A DNA stretch of 64,000 nucleotides. It comes from Nitrospira sp. Its GTDB lineage: Bacteria > Nitrospirota > Nitrospiria > Nitrospirales > Nitrospiraceae. The first letter of the stretch is position 1; each line of letters starts with the position of its first letter. A program made the position numbers and the translations under genes. The stretch covers positions 1 to 64,000 of the forward strand of contig JAEURX010000040.1 in assembly GCA_016788885.1 (NCBI GenBank). The letters run 5' to 3'. Positions 11,618-40,891 of the stretch are shown here, in pieces. The notes under the pieces are model-generated. The model made no database searches. It was given only the letters and a program-made list of their open reading frames with translations, and was not told where the DNA came from.

Positions 11618-13225
11618 CTATGCCGGAAACGGTTGCGGCGTCAGACCTGACACGGCACCGGACGCTTCATTGCCGGAAGCCGCCGGCTTGCCCGAACCTG
11701 CCGGTTTTGGCGCAGCTTTCCCCCGCACACGATGCATTTTCTCCCGTGTATGGTACGGCATGAGGTTCTCGAGGACCGCCGGCAGTTTGTCGCAAGGGAC
11801 ATCTTCCATGATCTTGGTCGCCAATTTGGGATCAGGCCCCGAACGACCGCCGACAAAAATATCGACCGCGTCGACGACCTTGCCTCCGACTCTGGCTTTC
11901 TTACCCAGAAGCCCGATATCTGCCACCAGGTGATTGCCGCACCCGGCCGGGCAGCCGGACCAGTGCAAGGTAATCGGCTTCAGCCCCTCGCCCAACTTAC
12001 GCTCCAGCACCCGGGCCGTCTCCACGGCCCGGCTTTTTGTTTCAATGACGGCCAGATTGCAATAGTCGCTGCCCACGCAACTCACCAGGCCCTTGTAGAG
12101 CGGCGACGGATTGTACGCAAATTGCTTCACGAGCGGCTCCTCCGCCAATTCGCCCACCACACGGTCGCTGATGTGCGGGATCACGAAGGCCTGCCCGGGC
12201 GAAAGCCGCACCTCACCCGTCCCGTAGCGATCTGCCAGCGCGGCGATGTTGCGCACGTCGCCCGCTTTGATCCGCCCCACCAACACTTTCAAGCCGATAT
12301 AGTTCAAGCCACGTTGTTTTTGGCGAAAAATGCCGATGTGATCGCGCTCGTCCGCCGCCCTGGCATCCACTCCAGCCGTCGGTAGGGCACGGCCCATACG
12401 CGCCTCCACCTCATGCCGGAGCCGGGCCTCGCCCCAGGCGTCGACCAGAAATGCGAGGCGTGCTTGGGTGCGATTCTCACGCGGGCCATGATCACGATAG
12501 ATGTGCAGCAGCGTCCGGCATACGTCGAAGGCTTCCGCAGGATTCACGAACATATCCAGTGAACTCGCGATGCGATATCCGCCGGAACCCAACTTGCCCC
12601 CGACCAGCACGTTGTAACCGAAACATTTGTCGTGGCCTAAGTCATGATAAGCAGGCACCAGCGCGATATCTTGCGTCTCCGTATGCAGGCAATTGTCCGG
12701 GCAGCCCGTCACCGCGATGTTGCACTTCCGCGGCAAGTTCGTATAGGCCGGGTTGCCCAACACTTCCTGATTGATGGCGCGAACGATCTCCGTCCCATCC
12801 AGCAATTCATTCGGATTCAAGCCCGCCACCGGGCAGGTCATCACGTTGCGCACGCTGTCCATGCCGGTTTGCATCGACGTCAGGCCGGCCTCCTCGAGCT
12901 TGGCAAACACTGCCGGCACATGGGCAATCGTCAGATGGCGGAGTTGCACTTGTTGCCGCGTGGTCACATCGATGACACCATTGCCATAGGCGAGAGCGAT
13001 GTCCGCCAGCGTTTGGAGTTGACTCGACGTGGTTTGGCCGCCCGGGATCCGCACCCGTAACATGAAGAAACCCGGCGTGGGATTCCGCAGGAACAGGCCG
13101 TACCACTTCAGCCGTTGAATATCGTCTTCGGGAATGGCTTCCCACCCTGCTTGCGCGTAGTGCGCAAGCAGGTCGCGCACCGTCAGTCCATCCCGTTCCG
13201 ACTTGATTGCCTCAATCTTGTTCAT
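11618..13225 (-). CDS. nirA: Assimilatory ferredoxin-dependent nitrite reductase (NirA-like), 535 aa
   Basis: Reduces nitrite to ammonium with six electrons from ferredoxin, for nitrogen assimilation. Both halves of the sulfite/nitrite reductase fold are present. The siroheme/4Fe-4S ligands are visible as C-x5-C (CVGSDYC) and C-x3-C (SGCPAGCGNH) in the C-terminal part, and TGCPDNC in the middle. Typical family length is 510-590 residues. The C-terminus is extended by a low-complexity Ala/Pro/Gly stretch. The start overlaps the stop of a small winged-helix gene by four bases, so translation is coupled. The genes upstream are cynS and nirC, which fit nitrite and cyanate use; sulfite reductase is a less likely alternative. 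Confidence 0.9.
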   Translation of the reverse strand: MNKIEAIKSERDGLTVRDLLAHYAQAGWEAIPEDDIQRLKWYGLFLRNPTPGFFMLRVRIPGGQTTSSQLQTLADIALAYGNGVIDVTTRQQVQLRHLTIAHVPAVFAKLEEAGLTSMQTGMDSVRNVMTCPVAGLNPNELLDGTEIVRAINQEVLGNPAYTNLPRKCNIAVTGCPDNCLHTETQDIALVPAYHDLGHDKCFGYNVLVGGKLGSGGYRIASSLDMFVNPAEAFDVCRTLLHIYRDHGPRENRTQARLAFLVDAWGEARLRHEVEARMGRALPTAGVDARAADERDHIGIFRQKQRGLNYIGLKVLVGRIKAGDVRNIAALADRYGTGEVRLSPGQAFVIPHISDRVVGELAEEPLVKQFAYNPSPLYKGLVSCVGSDYCNLAVIETKSRAVETARVLERKLGEGLKPITLHWSGCPAGCGNHLVADIGLLGKKARVGGKVVDAVDIFVGGRSGPDPKLATKIMEDVPCDKLPAVLENLMPYHTREKMHRVRGKAAPKPAGSGKPAASGNEASGAVSGLTPQPFPA

Positions 13226-13469: not shown

Positions 13470-13910
13470 TTAGAATGTCTTGTACTCAAGCCACTTGCCG
13501 TTCAACGTGATCTTGCAGCGGGCTTCCCCCTGACTGCCGGTGACTTTTTCCATGTCCAGCGTAAAATCGATGGCGCTCATAATCCCGTCGCCGAACATTT
13601 CATTGGCCATCTCCCGCAGGGAGTCACCGTAGACACCGATGACTTCCATCAGGCGATATTTGAACGGATCCGTGAGATTCGGGAAATCCGCGCGGACCGG
13701 AAAGGCGCTCAGAGCCGCCACTTGATCCTTACTCAACCCCAGCAACGTGCCGACTTTCGCCGCCTCGGACGGGGCGAGGCGGTGATTGCCGTTCAACGCC
13801 GCCGCCACAAATGTCGGATTCTTCCCGACCGTTTTGGCCACCTCGGCAATCGTCACCTTCTTTTTCAACCGTTGCGCCTTGATCCCCTTCCGCATCGCGT
13901 CCTTCTCCAT
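13470..13910 (-). CDS. cynS: Cyanate hydratase (cyanase), 146 aa
   Basis: Cyanase converts cyanate and bicarbonate to ammonia and CO2, providing nitrogen and detoxification. The N-terminal helix-turn-helix-like region (VTIAEVAKTVGKNPTFVAAAL) and the catalytic domain are intact: Arg and Glu in YRLMEVIGVYGD and Ser in GIMSAIDF, corresponding to the Arg96/Glu99/Ser122 triad of the E. coli enzyme. I chose the ATG at 13910, five bases after AGGAGG; an in-frame ATG directly before it (13913) and one at 13955 are possible. It sits between nirC and nirA on the same strand, an arrangement familiar from nitrite-oxidising Nitrospira. Confidence 0.95.
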   Translation of the reverse strand: MEKDAMRKGIKAQRLKKKVTIAEVAKTVGKNPTFVAAALNGNHRLAPSEAAKVGTLLGLSKDQVAALSAFPVRADFPNLTDPFKYRLMEVIGVYGDSLREMANEMFGDGIMSAIDFTLDMEKVTGSQGEARCKITLNGKWLEYKTF

Positions 13911-13961: not shown

Positions 13962-14792
13962 CTACGACCCGACCGCCGCCGATGTGGCCGGTCGAGCTAC
14001 CGGCATCACCGGGGCTTCTGCCACACGATAGGGACTCACCATCCAGTACAACCCGCCGACAAACACTCCGCCGCCCACCAGATTCCCCAGCACGACAAAC
14101 AGCTGGTTGTACCAAAAGGCCGTCCAGGTCACGGCTGCGTCATGCGGCAGAAACAGCGCCATACCCAGCAAGGATTGATTCGCAACGCTGTGCTCAAACC
14201 CCGTGCCGATGAAGGCAAACAGACACCAAAAAATCAGCAGGATTTTCGCAGTATCATTCGTCGTCCGCCCCGTCATCCATACGGCCAGGCAGATCAGCCA
14301 ATTACAGAGAATGCCCCGCACGAACAGTTCCCAGGCAGGCAGCAACATTTTGACCGCCGCCACTTTCTCAATCAGTTCCGCAGATGGCCCCTTCGCAAAC
14401 ACCCCTGACTGGACGATCAACCAGGCCAAGCCCAACGATCCCGCCAGATTTCCGATCCAGGACCAGGCATTGAGTTGAATGACTTGTCCCCAGGACAGGC
14501 TTCGTGACAGGCCACCGATGACACCGATCAAGTTGTTGCCGGTGAACAGCTCGGAGCCCGCAAAAATGACCAGCGTCAACGCGATACCGAATGACACGCC
14601 CATGATCAGTTTCACCACCGGAGAGCCAGCCGCCGCCAACGGTCCTCCGAGACTGAAGATCAACGCGATGCCGAAGCCGAGGTAGATCCCGGCCAAGGCC
14701 GACAGGATGAAATACCCGCCCGGCGCTTGTTCCAGAAACGCCCACTTCTTTGCCGCCACCCCTGCGATCCGCTCATGATCCGCTGTGTGCAT
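13962..14792 (-). CDS. nirC: Formate/nitrite transporter family channel (NirC-like), 276 aa
   Basis: A six-helix inner-membrane channel of the FNT family, expected to carry nitrite (or formate). The hydrophobic segments begin near FILSALAGIYLGFGIALIF; family signatures GSELFTGNNLIGVIGGL and GTGFEHSVANQSLL (the central histidine region) are present. The start at 14792 is preceded by AAAGGAGAG; the longer open frame upstream is the regulatory leader, not protein. First gene of nirC-cynS-wHTH-nirA, controlled by a promoter at 15042-15070 and two consecutive hairpin/terminator units between 14820 and 15021. Confidence 0.92.
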   Translation of the reverse strand: MHTADHERIAGVAAKKWAFLEQAPGGYFILSALAGIYLGFGIALIFSLGGPLAAAGSPVVKLIMGVSFGIALTLVIFAGSELFTGNNLIGVIGGLSRSLSWGQVIQLNAWSWIGNLAGSLGLAWLIVQSGVFAKGPSAELIEKVAAVKMLLPAWELFVRGILCNWLICLAVWMTGRTTNDTAKILLIFWCLFAFIGTGFEHSVANQSLLGMALFLPHDAAVTWTAFWYNQLFVVLGNLVGGGVFVGGLYWMVSPYRVAEAPVMPVARPATSAAVGS

Positions 14793-14819
14793 GAGACTCT
14801 CCTTTGGTGATCCGTCAGC

Positions 14820-14892
14820 AAAAAAAAGACGCCCTCTTCCCTGTGGAGGGAGGAGGACGTCTTTGTCCTGTTCAACGAGGGGGCGATCCTCG
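14820..14892 (-). promoter_or_regulatory. Second (proximal) ANTAR-type antiterminator unit of the nirC leader
   Basis: Read on the minus strand: a hairpin CGAGG/CCTCG with a 7-base loop (14876-14892), six bases of linker, then AGGAC-AAAGAC-GTCCT (14854-14869) with a six-base loop having A1 and G4. The 3' arm of that hairpin also forms the 5' arm of a terminator (GAGGACGTCT region 14853-14862 is complementary to 14827-14836, one G-U pair) followed by eight U (14820-14827). Hairpin and terminator are mutually exclusive. Its first hairpin is less canonical than in the other units. Confidence 0.7.
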
Positions 14893-14927
14893 ACTGCTAT
14901 TTGTGCGCCGACTTCAACGTCGGCAGA

Positions 14928-15021
14928 AACAAAAACGGCGTCCGCCACTCTTGAAAGAATGACGGACGCCATTGTCCGTGTACCGTATGTAGTGCAGGTT
15001 CGATATCAGGCGTCGTTGCCT
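14928..15021 (-). promoter_or_regulatory. First (distal) ANTAR-type antiterminator unit of the nirC leader
   Basis: Read on the minus strand: hairpin AGGC-AACGAC-GCCT (15008-15021), 28-nt linker, hairpin ACGGAC-AATGGC-GTCCGT (14962-14979), then a terminator in which GGCGTCCG (14963-14970) pairs with CGGACGCC (14937-14944) before a GUUUUUGUUU tract. Both loops are six bases with A1 and G4, the recognition pattern of ANTAR proteins. The two forms exclude each other. Confidence 0.8.
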
Positions 15022-15041
15022 ACTCTCACCCACTCCCTGCA

Positions 15042-15070
15042 TGTATACCATCGCCTCCCGGATTCGTCAA
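15042..15070 (-). promoter_or_regulatory. Sigma-70-like promoter of the nirC operon
   Basis: TTGACG (15065-15070), 17-bp spacer, TATACA (15042-15047) on the minus strand. Start of transcription would be near 15035, just before the first hexaloop hairpin, placing both antiterminator units in the leader RNA. It lies 26 bases after the glnA stop, so nirC has its own promoter. Confidence 0.7.
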
Positions 15071-15095
15071 GCGCCCTTGACGAAGAGGCCACAGG

Positions 15096-16505
15096 CTACA
15101 CGTCGTAATACAGGAAAAACTCATACGGATGCGGCCGCAACCGCATGGTATCGACTTCCTTGGTCCGCTTGTATCCGATCCACGCCTCGATGAGGTCCTC
15201 GCTGAACACCCCGCCTTTGAGGAGGAACTGATGGTCCTTCTCCAGATGATTGAGCGCCTCGTCAAGGCTGCCTGGCATGGTGCGGATCTTCGCGGCTTCT
15301 TTGGCTTCGAGATCGTACAGATCCTTCTCAGCCGGCTCTCCCGGATTGATCTTGTTCTCGATGCCGTCCAGACCCGCCATCAGCATGGCCGCAAAGGCCA
15401 GGTACGGATTGGCAGCCGGGTCCGGGAAACGCACTTCGATCCGCTTCGCCTTCGGGCTCGGGGAGTACATGGGAATACGAATACCAGCCGACCGGTTACG
15501 GCTCGAGTAGGCCAACAACACCGGCGCTTCAAATCCCGGCGTCAATCGTTTGTATGAGTTGGTCGACGGGTTGGTGAAAGCCGCCAGCGCGGGCGCGTGC
15601 TTCAGAATGCCACCGATGTAGTGCAGGCACATCTGCGAGACGCCGGCATATTCCTTCCCGGCAAACAGCGGCTTGCCGTCCTTCCAGATGCTCTGGTGGG
15701 TGTGCATGCCCGATCCGTTATCGCCAAAAATCGGCTTCGGCATGAAGGTCACCGTCTTCCCATGGCGACGCGCAACGTTCTTGACGATGTACTTGAACAT
15801 CATCATTTTGTCGGCGGTCCTCAGAAGGCTATCGAAGCGAATATCGATTTCCGCCTGCCCCGCCGTCGCCACTTCGTGGTGATGCTTTTCGGTGGCGATG
15901 CCCGCTTTTTCCATTTCCAAAATCATTTCCGTGCGGATGTCCTGTTGCGTATCCGTCGGCGCAACCGGGAAATAGCCTTCCTTGTGCCGGATCTTGCCGC
16001 CCAGGTTGACGCCCTCCTGCCCCATGTTCCACACGCCTTCATCCGAATCGATGTGGTAGTAGGCACTGTGGTTCGTCTGGTCGTAGCGGGCATGGTCGAA
16101 AATGAAGAACTCGGCTTCAGGCCCCCAGTAGGAGGTGTCGCCGATCTTAGTACTCTGGAGATACTTTTCCGCCTTCTGGGCGATAAATCGCGGATCGCGG
16201 TCGTACATTTCGCGCGTGATTGGATCGACCACATTTCCGATCAGGCTCAGGGTGGGCACGGAGCAAAAGGGATCCATGCAGGCGGTTGCCGGGTCCGGCA
16301 CGAGCAGCATGTCGCTGTTGTTGATCGCCCTCCAGCCGCGAATCGACGACCCGTCGAGTCCGGATCCGTCCTTGAACAGGCCCTCGGTCAGCTCACTGAC
16401 AGGAATTGTAAAATGCTGCCAGGTGCCGATCAGGTCGACGAACTTCATGTCCACGACCTGGACCTTATTCTTCTTTGCAAAATCTAACACCTCACGAACG
16501 TTCAT
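15096..16505 (-). CDS. glnA: Glutamine synthetase type I (GlnA), 469 aa
   Basis: Makes glutamine from glutamate, ammonium and ATP; the entry point of ammonium into metabolism. All core motifs are present: [12 protein letters not shown] (beta-grasp part), [15 protein letters not shown], the NRSAGIRIP arginine motif and [12 protein letters not shown]. The adenylylation site is Tyr397 in KDLYDLE, the same number as in enterobacteria, consistent with control by the GlnE-like proteins at 883-5044. AAGGAGGAGG precedes the ATG. It is the last gene of the porin-amtB-glnB-glnD-glnA run, 51 bases after glnD. Confidence 0.98.
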
Positions 16506-21912: not shown

Positions 21913-21990
21913 GACGCCTCCAAAGAGAGAAGAAGTAAATGTGCCCTGCCCCCACACCGTCATACCCGACGATCTGTGAGCCCCGTCTCT

Positions 21991-22032
21991 CTGGCGCCAT
22001 TGCCAGTGTTGCTGACCGACGTCGTTGTCGGT
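21991..22032 (-). promoter_or_regulatory. Hexaloop hairpin pair without terminator, upstream of porin-amtB operon
   Basis: Minus strand: ACCGAC-AACGAC-GTCGGT (22015-22032), 8-nt linker, CTGGC-AATGGC-GCCAG (21991-22006). Both loops have six bases with A1 and G4. No U tract follows. Instead the bases after hairpin 2 (AGAGAGA, 21986-21992) are complementary to TCTCTCT (21924-21930) just before the GGAGG of the porin, and GGCG/CGCC adds pairs over the Shine-Dalgarno. Hairpin 2 would exclude that helix, suggesting translational rather than terminator control. Confidence 0.55.
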
Positions 22033-22046
22033 CTGGATGCTGCGGT

Positions 22047-23959: not shown

Positions 23960-23966
23960 GCTGCTC

Positions 23967-24066
23967 AAAAAAAAAGTCCTCGGACCCACCATATTCGGTG
24001 GACCAGAGGACGTCGTTGTCCTGCGCCATCTCTATAAGGGATAGCCTCCTGAGACTCCGTTGTCCC
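23967..24066 (-). promoter_or_regulatory. ANTAR-type antiterminator leader of nadE
   Basis: Minus strand: GGGAC-AACGGA-GTCTC (24051-24066, one G-U pair), 28-nt linker, AGGAC-AACGAC-GTCCT (24007-24022), then a terminator where GAGGAC (24006-24011, sharing the second hairpin) pairs with GTCCTC (23976-23981) around an inner stem, followed by nine U (23967-23975). Six-base loops with A1 and G4 in both hairpins. Confidence 0.8.
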
Positions 24067-24082
24067 TGGAAAAGCTGGCGAA

Positions 24083-27832: not shown

Positions 27833-29560
27833 TCAGAAGAGGAAGTAGCGCTGCGCCATCGGCAACACCTCAACCGGCTCGCATTTCAACAAGATGCCGT
27901 CCGCACGCACCTCATAGGTTTCCGAATCCACCTCGATCTGCGGCAGCGCGTCGTTCAACTTGAGATCACGCTTCCCGATGCTCCGACAGCCTTTCACAGC
28001 GGCCACGCGCTTTTGCAATCCCAACTGTTTCGGCACGTCGCGCTCCATCGCCTGTTGCGAGAGAAAGGTCAAACTTGTGCTAAACGGCGCCCGCCCGAAA
28101 CTGCCGAACATCGGCCGCGTCAACACCGGTTGCGGTGTCGGGATTGAAGCATTCGGATCGCCCATGGCTGCCGACATGGGAAACCCGCCTTTCAAGACGA
28201 TCTCAGGCTTCACGCCGAAGAACGCCGGTTTCCATAATACAAGATCGGCCAGCTTGCCGACTTCGATCGAGCCGACGTCATGAGCAATCCCATGGGCAAT
28301 CGCCGGGTTGATCGTATACTTCGCCACATACCGGCGCGCGCGCCAGTTGTCATGCAGGCCGTCCGACGCTTCAACACCATGTTCGGACAGATGCCCCCGC
28401 TGGAGCTTCATCTTGTGCGCCGTTTGCCAGGTGCGGATGATCACTTCGCCCACCCGCCCCATGGCCTGCGAATCGGACGACATAATGCTGATGGCGCCCA
28501 TATCGTGCAGGATATCCTCGGCCGCAATCGTCTCACGGCGGATACGCGACTCGGCGAAGGCGATGTCTTCCGGCACGCGCGGGTTCAAGTGATGGCAGAC
28601 CATGAGCATGTCGAGATGCTCATCCATCGTATTGACCGTGAACGGCATGGTGGGATTCGTCGACGACGGCAATACGTTCGGCTCACCGCACACTTTGATG
28701 ACGTCCGGCGCATGTCCGCCGCCGGCGCCTTCCGTATGGAATGAATGGATCGTCCGGCCCTTGAAGGCCTTGATCGTATCTTCCACAAACCCGGCTTCAT
28801 TAATGGTGTCCGTGTGAATGGCCACCTGGATGTCATACCGTTCCGCTACGCTGAGGCAAGTATCGATGGCGGCTGGAGTCGTCCCCCAATCCTCGTGCAG
28901 CTTCAGTCCGATCGCCCCCGCTTCGACCTGCTCGTTCAAACCTTCAGGCAGTGACGAATTCCCCTTGCCCAGGAACCCCAAGTTGATCGGGAACCCATCC
29001 GCCGCCTCCAGCATACGATGAATGTTCCATGGGCCAGGGGTGCAGGTCGTCGCATTCGTCCCGGTGACCGGGCCCGTCCCGCCGCCGATCAGCGTTGTCA
29101 GTCCGTTCGCCAGCGCTTCGGTGATGATTTGCGGGCAGATAAAATGGATATGCGTATCGATCCCGCCGGCGGTGATGATCTTTCCCTCAGCCGATAACAC
29201 CTCGGTGCAAGGCCCGATCTCCAGGCCTTTCGTGACGCCGTCCATGAGATCGGAATTTCCGGCCTTGCCGATGCCGACAATGCGGCCGCCCCTGATCCCG
29301 ATGTCCGCCTTCACCACGCCCCACCAGTCGAGGATGATCGCATTCGTGATGACGAGGTCCAAGCCGCCTTCCGCACGCGTAGCCGCCGGCGATTGTCCCA
29401 TGCCGTCTCGAATCACCTTCCCGCCGCCGAACTTGGCCTCTTCGCCAGGAACGGTCAGATCGCGAGTGATCTCGACCAGCAGGTCCGTATCGGCCAACCG
29501 GATGCGATCACCAGCAGTAGGCCCATACAGGTCGTTGTATTGGCGTCTGGGAATCTTCAT
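27833..29560 (-). CDS. ureC: Urease subunit alpha (UreC), 575 aa
   Basis: Catalytic subunit hydrolysing urea to ammonia and CO2 at a dinuclear nickel site. Nickel-binding and catalytic motifs: [13 protein letters not shown], the carbamylated lysine in [22 protein letters not shown] and [12 protein letters not shown]. The flap region is in [21 protein letters not shown]. Start [15 protein letters not shown] at 29560 is the family start. ureB and ureC are separated by repeat R2, an unusually wide gap for urease structural genes. Confidence 0.98.
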
Positions 29561-38439: not shown

Positions 38440-38536
38440 AAAAAAAAACGCCCTTCCGGTCCAACCGTTGGACCAAAAGGACGTCATTGTCCTCTGCCTT
38501 TGTAGCGTCTGTGAAAATTCAGGACGTCGTTGTCCT
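38440..38536 (-). promoter_or_regulatory. ANTAR-type antiterminator leader of the porin-urt-ure operon
   Basis: Minus strand: AGGAC-AACGAC-GTCCT (38521-38536), 27-nt linker, AGGAC-AATGAC-GTCCT (38478-38493), then a terminator: ACGTCCTTTT pairs with GGAAGGGCGT (several G-U pairs) around the inner stem GGTCCAA/TTGGACC, followed by nine U (38440-38448). Hairpin 2 and terminator share GACGTCC and exclude each other. This is the clearest of the units. Confidence 0.85.
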
Positions 38537-38559
38537 GCCTTCACCGCACACGGGAGAGG

Positions 38560-39631: not shown

Positions 39632-40891
39632 TCACCCCCGGTTCTTGTCTGCCCGGTCTTCAATTTCACCCGCCAGTAAAATCGCTTCGGCAATCTCCCG
39701 CATGGACTTGCGTAGGTCCATACTCTGTCGCTGAATCAGCTTGAACGCCTCCTCTTCAGACAGGCGTTTGGACCGCATGAGATACCCCTTGGCCCTGTCG
39801 AGCAACTTGCGGACTTGTAATGCCTCTTGCATCTCAAACGACTTCTCTAACAGCGTCGTGTGCTCGATGGAGATCGCCGCTTGATTGGCGATGGCCTGCA
39901 TGAGCTTCACATCCTCCGACGAAAACGTATGGGGTTTCGACGTATACGTATTGATGACCCCGATGGCTTTTTCCCGCACCAGCATGGGGACACAGAGCAG
40001 CGAACAAAGGCCTTCCTTCGCGGCCATGTCCGGGTACATGTAGGAGCCTTCTTTGGTGACATCCGGAACGATGATCGGCCGGCGATCCTGAACCGCGCGC
40101 CCGCTGATACTTTGGCCGATCTTCACATTGGGCTTGCGCCGGTATTGCTCGCTCAAGCTTTGTGTGGCCGCGATACGAAGTTCACCGGTCGGCTGATCCA
40201 ACAGGATGATGGAACAGATTTTCGACCCCATCATTTGCGCCGTCATCGTCACAATCAGCTGCAACACATCTTCCATCAGACGATTCGATGAGACGGTCTC
40301 CGACACTTGAGACAAGGTGTCGAGTTGCAGCGCCTTGCGGGTCATCTGATCGTAGAGTCGAGCGTTCTCGATCGCACCGCCGACCTGCGTCGCGATGGTC
40401 GACAGCAGGGCCAGCTCATCGGGGCGGTACCGTCGGGACCGTTTGTGTTGCACATTGATGACGCCGACCACCTCCTGCTTGGTCGTGATCGGCACGGAGA
40501 CAAATGCCTGATAGCGGTCTTCCGGCAGGTTGTGAAAAAACTTGAACCGCGAATCGTCACTCGCGCTGTTCGGAATCACCACGCGCGTTCTCTCGCGCGC
40601 AACCCAGCCGGTGATCCCCTCTCCCAATCCGATCGTAATGCGCCCGATGAGCTTCGGATGGGGATTCTTGGAGGCTCGAAGAATCAGCTCGTCCCGGTTA
40701 TCGGACAGCAAATACAGCAGACAGGCATCCGCTTTCGTCGCTTCCACCACTACATCGACGATATGCCGGAGGACGGACTCCAGATCGAGCGTGCTACTGA
40801 TCGATTCGCTGATACGATGCAGGACATCGACTTCGCGTGTCTTTTCACGCAACGCCTGTTCCAATTGAGTTACGGTTCGCTTCGGTGCCAT
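39632..40891 (-). CDS. GAF-GAF-ANTAR antiterminator regulator, 419 aa
   Basis: The ATG at 40891 (MAPKRTVTQLEQAL, AGGAG upstream) is the true start; the longer frame is a shadow of aroB. Domains: a short N-terminal coiled coil, GAF 1 (about 27-175, with LGEGITGWVARERT and FVSVPITTKQEVVGVINVQH), GAF 2 (about 195-345, with IGQSISGRAVQDRRPIIVPDV and LLCVPMLVREKAIGVINTY), then an ANTAR domain (about 355-410: RKLLDRAKGYLMRSKRLSEEEAFKLIQRQSM split around the conserved Ala and hydrophobic core). ANTAR domains bind paired hexaloop RNA hairpins and prevent termination. GAF domains bind small molecules, so the signal is sensed directly rather than through a receiver domain. Several matching RNA leaders occur in this window. 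It follows aroB by seven bases. Confidence 0.9.
   Translation of the reverse strand: MAPKRTVTQLEQALREKTREVDVLHRISESISSTLDLESVLRHIVDVVVEATKADACLLYLLSDNRDELILRASKNPHPKLIGRITIGLGEGITGWVARERTRVVIPNSASDDSRFKFFHNLPEDRYQAFVSVPITTKQEVVGVINVQHKRSRRYRPDELALLSTIATQVGGAIENARLYDQMTRKALQLDTLSQVSETVSSNRLMEDVLQLIVTMTAQMMGSKICSIILLDQPTGELRIAATQSLSEQYRRKPNVKIGQSISGRAVQDRRPIIVPDVTKEGSYMYPDMAAKEGLCSLLCVPMLVREKAIGVINTYTSKPHTFSSEDVKLMQAIANQAAISIEHTTLLEKSFEMQEALQVRKLLDRAKGYLMRSKRLSEEEAFKLIQRQSMDLRKSMREIAEAILLAGEIEDRADKNRG

Follow-up and report, generated by a model that had tools for sequence, protein, structure and literature searches.

The leader between glnA and nirC of this Nitrospira genome contains two transcription terminators in series, each overlapped by an antiterminator hairpin of the type recognized by ANTAR proteins. 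As judged from the sequence and its conservation, this leader is likely to be a serial, protein-dependent transcription gate, with the same ANTAR protein acting at both units. Two antiterminator units in series had been proposed in an earlier note on this DNA. The proposal is supported by 55 leaders from seven genera in which both units are conserved, by the occurrence of one ANTAR protein per genome of the same genus, and by the co-occurrence of this protein with the RNA units. Within the analyzed stretch of 64,000 nucleotides (the window), the leader and the operon behind it comprise the following features:

14792..15096, minus strand: leader, bounded by the stop of glnA (15096) and the start of nirC (14792), by sequence
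15042..15070, minus strand: promoter TTGACG (15070-15065), 17-nt spacer, extended -10 element TGgTATACA (hexamer 15047-15042), by sequence and conservation
14995..15032, minus strand: outer stem of P1a, arms 15032-15028 and 14999-14995, by RNAalifold consensus and pair counts
15007..15022, minus strand: P1a, recruiting hairpin of unit 1, UAGGC-AACGAC-GCCUG, by loop conservation and covariance model
14962..14979, minus strand: P2a, antiterminator hairpin 1, ACGGAC-AAUGGC-GUCCGU, by conservation and overlap with terminator 1
14927..14973, minus strand: terminator 1 (T1), stem 14973-14934, U tract 14935-14927 (UUUUUGUUU), by terminator scans
14907..14924, minus strand: P1b, proposed recruiting hairpin of unit 2, GCCGAC-GUUGAA-GUCGGC (G1, G4), directly after terminator 1
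14876..14892, minus strand: spacer hairpin CGAGG-AUCGCCC-CCUCG, the first hairpin of unit 2 in the earlier note, by stem conservation
14854..14869, minus strand: P2b, antiterminator hairpin 2, AGGAC-AAAGAC-GUCCU, by conservation and overlap with terminator 2
14820..14864, minus strand: terminator 2 (T2), stem 14864-14825, U tract 14827-14820, by terminator scan
13962..14792, minus strand: nirC, formate/nitrite transporter, first gene of the operon (Pfam PF01226, E 1.3e-65)
13470..13910, minus strand: cynS, cyanase (Pfam PF02560 and PF21291)
11618..13225, minus strand: nirA, ferredoxin-type nitrite reductase (Pfam PF01077, PF03460)

That a single promoter precedes both terminators could be confirmed: same-genus relatives have kept the element TTGACG-17-TGgTATACA ahead of the leader. 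The case for this promoter is its conservation; the output of a promoter scan that applied a stricter sigma-70 rule did not include it. The ribosome site of nirC comes after terminator 2. An Rfam search of the window returned no family match for the leader. The same search matched RF02514 (5' ureB sRNA, 87.8 bits) to positions 29119-29410 of the plus strand, antisense to the gene for the urease alpha subunit; this match is more likely due to the conserved urease gene than to a genuine sRNA.

Both the sequence and the terminator scan bore out the description of two serial terminators, each with an overlapping hairpin that presents a loop of six bases with A in position 1 and G in position 4 (A1/G4 hexaloop; AAUGGC and AAAGAC). 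In both units the second hairpin overlaps an intrinsic terminator, and base pairing makes the P2 hairpin and the terminator mutually exclusive. The calculated energies are -29.8 kcal/mol for T1 and -26.6 kcal/mol for T2, compared to -8.1 kcal/mol for P2a and -5.6 kcal/mol for P2b. The terminators are therefore far more stable than the hairpins they exclude, as expected if a protein must hold P2. When we scanned for A1/G4 hexaloop hairpins with a 3' arm that starts a terminator, the 64-kb window yielded four, compared to 0.15 on average over 20 block shuffles. Two of the four lie in the nirC leader and the others at 23968-24022 and 38441-38495. Three are preceded by a second A1/G4 hairpin 24-28 nt upstream; the exception is unit 2 of the nirC leader. 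The upper stem of terminator 1 (UCAUUCU...AGAGUGG; 14934-14973, minus strand) is almost invariant across genera, beyond the needs of a terminator.

In unit 1 both hairpins have hexaloops with A1 and G4, and across 23 leaders A1 and G4 of the P1a and P2a loops as well as the P2a stem are invariant. The outer stem of P1a consists of five pairs, of which three have changed on both sides, and 93% of its alignment cells are paired (RNAalifold consensus, pair counts). This stem folds away part of the P1a-P2a linker. By sequence, the P1-P2 linker of unit 1 measures 27 nt and that of unit 2 measures 37 nt, in part folded into the outer stem and the spacer hairpin, respectively. Both exceed the range of approximately 2-25 nt used for ANTAR-target RNAs. 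Since this range is a curation filter for actinobacterial ANTAR RNAs and not an absolute rule (PMC8164766), the long linkers are a departure in detail and no ground to exclude the two units from the ANTAR-target attenuators. Antitermination by EutV is abolished by 20 additional nucleotides between the hairpins (PMC8934654), and the long P1-P2 distances count against the double-gate reading unless folding brings the loops together.

To compare this leader with those of relatives, we used the NirC protein as an anchor, so that the RNA pattern was no part of the selection. A close NirC is encoded in 24 of 29 same-genus genomes, and at 23 of these 24 nirC loci the whole leader is present with both units. 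The 24th genome (G016) contains the same double leader after glnA, ahead of another gene. Three genomes that do not encode this nirC (G012, G004, and G002) also carry the double leader after glnA; the next genes across these three genomes and G016 are cynS or a transporter gene. In other genera, both units occur at all 12 glnA-nirC loci inspected, and nirC genes located after cynS carry a single unit. Several of these cynS-nirC cases have an extra unit match about 3.9 kb farther upstream, which turned out to be the double leader that follows glnA. In total, we found 55 double leaders in seven genera, which as related sequences are not independent observations. The C-terminus of glnA lies directly upstream in 54 of them, including leaders followed by cynS or nrtA as the first gene. 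This comparison therefore found not one conserved terminator but both units in 55 leaders. Loss of the second unit was seen in one genome only, a reduced genome of 1.7 Mb (G083) that has kept unit 1 after glnA (L142). A phylum-wide sample from outside the family gave one weak match.

The antitermination structure itself is also conserved. We scored P1a with its outer stem, P2a, the hairpin 14924-14907, the spacer hairpin, and P2b in an alignment of 23 sequences: 96.7% of the cells are paired, and ten pairs have changed on both sides. Shuffled alignments gave 3.1 such pairs, and none of 500 shuffles reached ten. Sliding the pairing partners against each other destroys the pairing. Covariation is uninformative for P2a and P2b, whose stems are nearly constant.

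A covariance model of the P1-P2 unit (CM R1) was built on unit 1. In the whole 3.9-Mb genome the model identified three full units, all on the contig of the window and none elsewhere; these three sequences were also part of the alignment behind the model, so that the informative outcome is the lack of additional units outside this contig. The P1a-P2a unit scored 66.7 bits (E 6.5e-16). Unit 2 appeared only as a half match with 18.7 bits for P2b, and we therefore searched for its true first hairpin. The hairpin 14924-14907 is the better candidate for this role. In the 23 aligned same-genus leaders it invariably has a hexaloop with a purine in position 1, mostly G, and G4 is present in 22 (missing in one relative, G021); the P2b loop shows A1/G4 in 23 of 23. 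A hexaloop hairpin with a purine in position 1, G4, and a C-G closing pair (R1/G4 hairpin) occurs between T1 and P2b in 53 of the 55 leaders, compared to 1.9% of shuffled segments, although loop positions 1 and 4 were used in the search so that their tally is partly by construction. The choice between A and G in position 1 was free: 47 of the 53 hairpins have G and six have A, whereas the other three hexaloops of the leader have A. These pooled P1b hairpins were kept out of the covariation count because they had been chosen for pairing.

P1b seems to represent a tolerated but different loop. In this respect the suggestion that the first hairpin of unit 2 is off-consensus was right in spirit, with the deviation being G instead of A in loop position 1. 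A1 is required in EutV, and this deviation counts against the double-gate reading. Ahead of an outer-membrane/lipoprotein-like gene, two genomes contain a second, separate double ANTAR leader (L134 at G020 C1:642174, minus strand; L135 at G021 C1:1638393, plus strand). Their elements are arranged in the order P1-P2/T1-P1b-spacer-P2b/T2, and G1 loops are found not only in P1b but in P2 positions as well (GAUGAG, GAUGAA, GAGGAC), which supports G1 as an accepted variant.

Could P1a serve both terminators? An ANTAR dimer recruited by P1a might hold P2a and then pass to P2b, with the intervening hairpins as mere spacers. Such a mechanism would agree with the lack of A1 in P1b and the full A1/G4 loop of P2b, and hand-over together with a second dimer on the recruiting hairpin has been proposed for EutV (PMC8934654). 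We consider this reading unlikely. The distance from P1a to P2b is more than 130 nt, and the R1/G4 hairpin is retained in nearly all leaders despite changes of position and stem between genera. In the genus of the source genome and several genomes of g10, g13, g15, and g17 this hairpin adjoins T1 and is followed by the spacer hairpin; it adjoins P2b instead of T1 in G002, g2, and most of g6; and in G072 it is the sole hairpin between T1 and P2b.

The earlier note had placed the first hairpin of unit 2 at 14892-14876, with a seven-base loop and a linker of six bases to P2b. This hairpin does exist, and its stem is kept with compensatory changes in four of seven pairs. Its loop in the source genome begins with A..G (AUCGCCC), and the R1/G4 hexaloop hairpin occupies the same place in G002, g2, and most of g6. 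Within the genus, however, the loop varies from 3 to 9 nt and shows A1/G4 in only about three of 23 leaders, whereas the hairpin upstream keeps its hexaloop and, with one exception, its G4. We therefore dropped this candidate for the genus as an improbable assignment and regard the seven-base-loop hairpin as a spacer and 14924-14907 as the better placement of P1b. The least probable alternative, that one of the terminators is plain (for example T1 stopping read-through from glnA, or T2 as a constitutive brake) and just one is regulated, can draw on the frequent occurrence of paired fail-safe terminators, but is very unlikely in view of a conserved promoter ahead of T1 and of the finding that the 5' arm of each terminator doubles as the 3' arm of an A1/G4 hexaloop hairpin that is invariant, an element for which a plain terminator has no need.

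A serial gate of two ANTAR units would depend on a cognate protein, for which the genome offers one candidate:

39632..40891, minus strand: GAF-GAF-ANTAR protein, proposed regulator (by Pfam)

This is the only ANTAR protein in the genome, and each of the 29 same-genus genomes encodes exactly one. Among 147 genomes of the family, 90 contain both an ANTAR protein and RNA units, seven contain the RNA only, nine the protein only, and 41 neither (Fisher p 2e-20, uncorrected for relatedness). In the structure of EutV bound to RNA, loop base G4 is stacked against Tyr164, and Arg142, Lys149, and Glu160 bind this base (PMC8934654). Alignment with 6wsh, for which we worked out a numbering offset of two, indicates that the Nitrospira protein keeps Arg142, Lys143, Lys149, Glu160, Met172, and Arg175, and has Phe in place of Tyr164. 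Retention of the residues that contact G4 and the substitution of Tyr164 would fit a strict G4 and a relaxed position 1.

The two remaining full units identified by CM R1 are single attenuators:

38441..38537, minus strand: single ANTAR attenuator with terminator, upstream of a porin-like gene beside urea transporter genes (CM R1 56.1 bits, E 7.1e-13, 38537-38477)
23960..24067, minus strand: single ANTAR attenuator with terminator, upstream of an NAD synthetase-like gene (CM R1 48.5 bits, E 1.0e-10, 24067-24006)

In addition, a close pair of A1/G4 hexaloop hairpins without a U tract occurs at 21990-22030 on the minus strand (CCGAC-AACGAC-GUCGG and CUGGC-AAUGGC-GCCAG), upstream of a gene for an outer-membrane protein (start at about 21911) that precedes amtB-glnB-glnD-glnA. 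The sequence AGAGAGA after P2 of this pair could pair with UCUCUCU adjoining the ribosome site, and the pair may be a translational ANTAR switch. Because it was out of register in alignment A2 (21991-22036), it was excluded from the model. Together, the nirC leader, the two single attenuators, and this pair suggest one ANTAR regulon in a nitrogen island.

Proteins with known ANTAR-target attenuator RNAs include NasR, AmiR, and EutV (PMC3369931). The nirC leader resembles the targets of NasR (Klebsiella nasF), AmiR, and EutV (E. faecalis eut) by its two A1/G4 hexaloop hairpins, the second of which overlaps an intrinsic terminator, and as in those systems an ANTAR protein is encoded in the genome. 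Like nasF, the leader serves nitrite/nitrate assimilation. It differs from these targets by the presence of two complete units in series, with G1 in P1b, and from eut, where the linkers measure 5-12 nt, by folded P1-P2 linkers of 27-37 nt. The regulator also differs from NasR, AmiR, and EutV because it contains two GAF domains instead of a NIT or REC domain. By its predicted function, the leader is a case of the known ANTAR attenuator mechanism. Among the papers open to our literature search, we found no description of ANTAR RNAs in Nitrospira or of tandem ANTAR units.

Closer parallels to the tandem arrangement exist among riboswitches. Tandem riboswitches for TPP, c-di-GMP (class I), and others have been called pseudo-cooperative (PMC9481103). 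They likewise place two complete modules, each with sensor and terminator, before one gene to be read in turn by the polymerase, and the anatomy of the nirC leader, as seen in the sequence, fits this two-module layout. Unlike in these riboswitches, the Nitrospira sensor would be a protein rather than a metabolite aptamer, and its second module shows systematic differences from the first. The c-di-GMP riboswitch Bc1 (PMC11218506) also has two terminators per leader, 28 bp apart, but combines one aptamer with a long expression platform, whereas the Nitrospira terminators each have an antiterminator hairpin of their own.

How might a leader with two gates operate? In the off-state, a polymerase starting from the promoter between glnA and nirC would stop at T1, and any polymerase that leaks through would stop at T2. 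The active GAF-GAF-ANTAR protein would bind P1a and P2a and hold P2a, so that T1 is prevented. For T2 to be prevented as well, the same protein would next have to bind P1b and P2b. Since there is only one ANTAR protein, both gates should read the same signal. The activating state is probably nitrogen limitation. This assignment fits the expression of nirA by N. tepida in the absence of ammonium (PMC12342949). The G1 loop in P1b and the spacer hairpin before P2b probably make unit 2 a weaker or differently tuned step. A gate of two non-identical ANTAR units, the second with a G1 recruiting loop and a structured spacer, would require two actions of the regulator, perhaps with two thresholds, to switch on the assimilation of nitrite and cyanate; we put this refinement forward as a possibility at somewhat less than even chances.

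The suggestion that a serial gate sharpens the response survives only in part. Simple arithmetic for two identical, independent gates gives an effective Hill coefficient of 1.19 instead of 1 (2.38 instead of 2 for dimers), so that slight sharpening is only weakly expected. The other effect named in the earlier note, integration of the copy number of the active regulator, would be a mere possibility. The same arithmetic lowers a leak of 0.1 to 0.01, that is, from 10% to 1%. According to this model, the gain from the second gate would mainly consist of a tighter off-state by multiplicative suppression of leakage. Such tightness would suit a nitrite oxidizer, for which nitrite is always around and which should not use it for assimilation in the presence of ammonium.

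If the leader works as proposed, it represents a regulator-driven attenuator built as two serial gates and maintained across seven genera of Nitrospira relatives. Its G1 loop and long folded spacers would widen the accepted consensus of ANTAR RNAs. Leaders after glnA are double, whereas those of the porin gene, the NAD synthetase gene, and cynS-nirC are single, and with this natural difference the benefit of the second gate is directly testable. Finally, these observations point to a single ANTAR protein as a switch for nitrogen assimilation genes in nitrite oxidizers, organisms whose gene regulation is little known.
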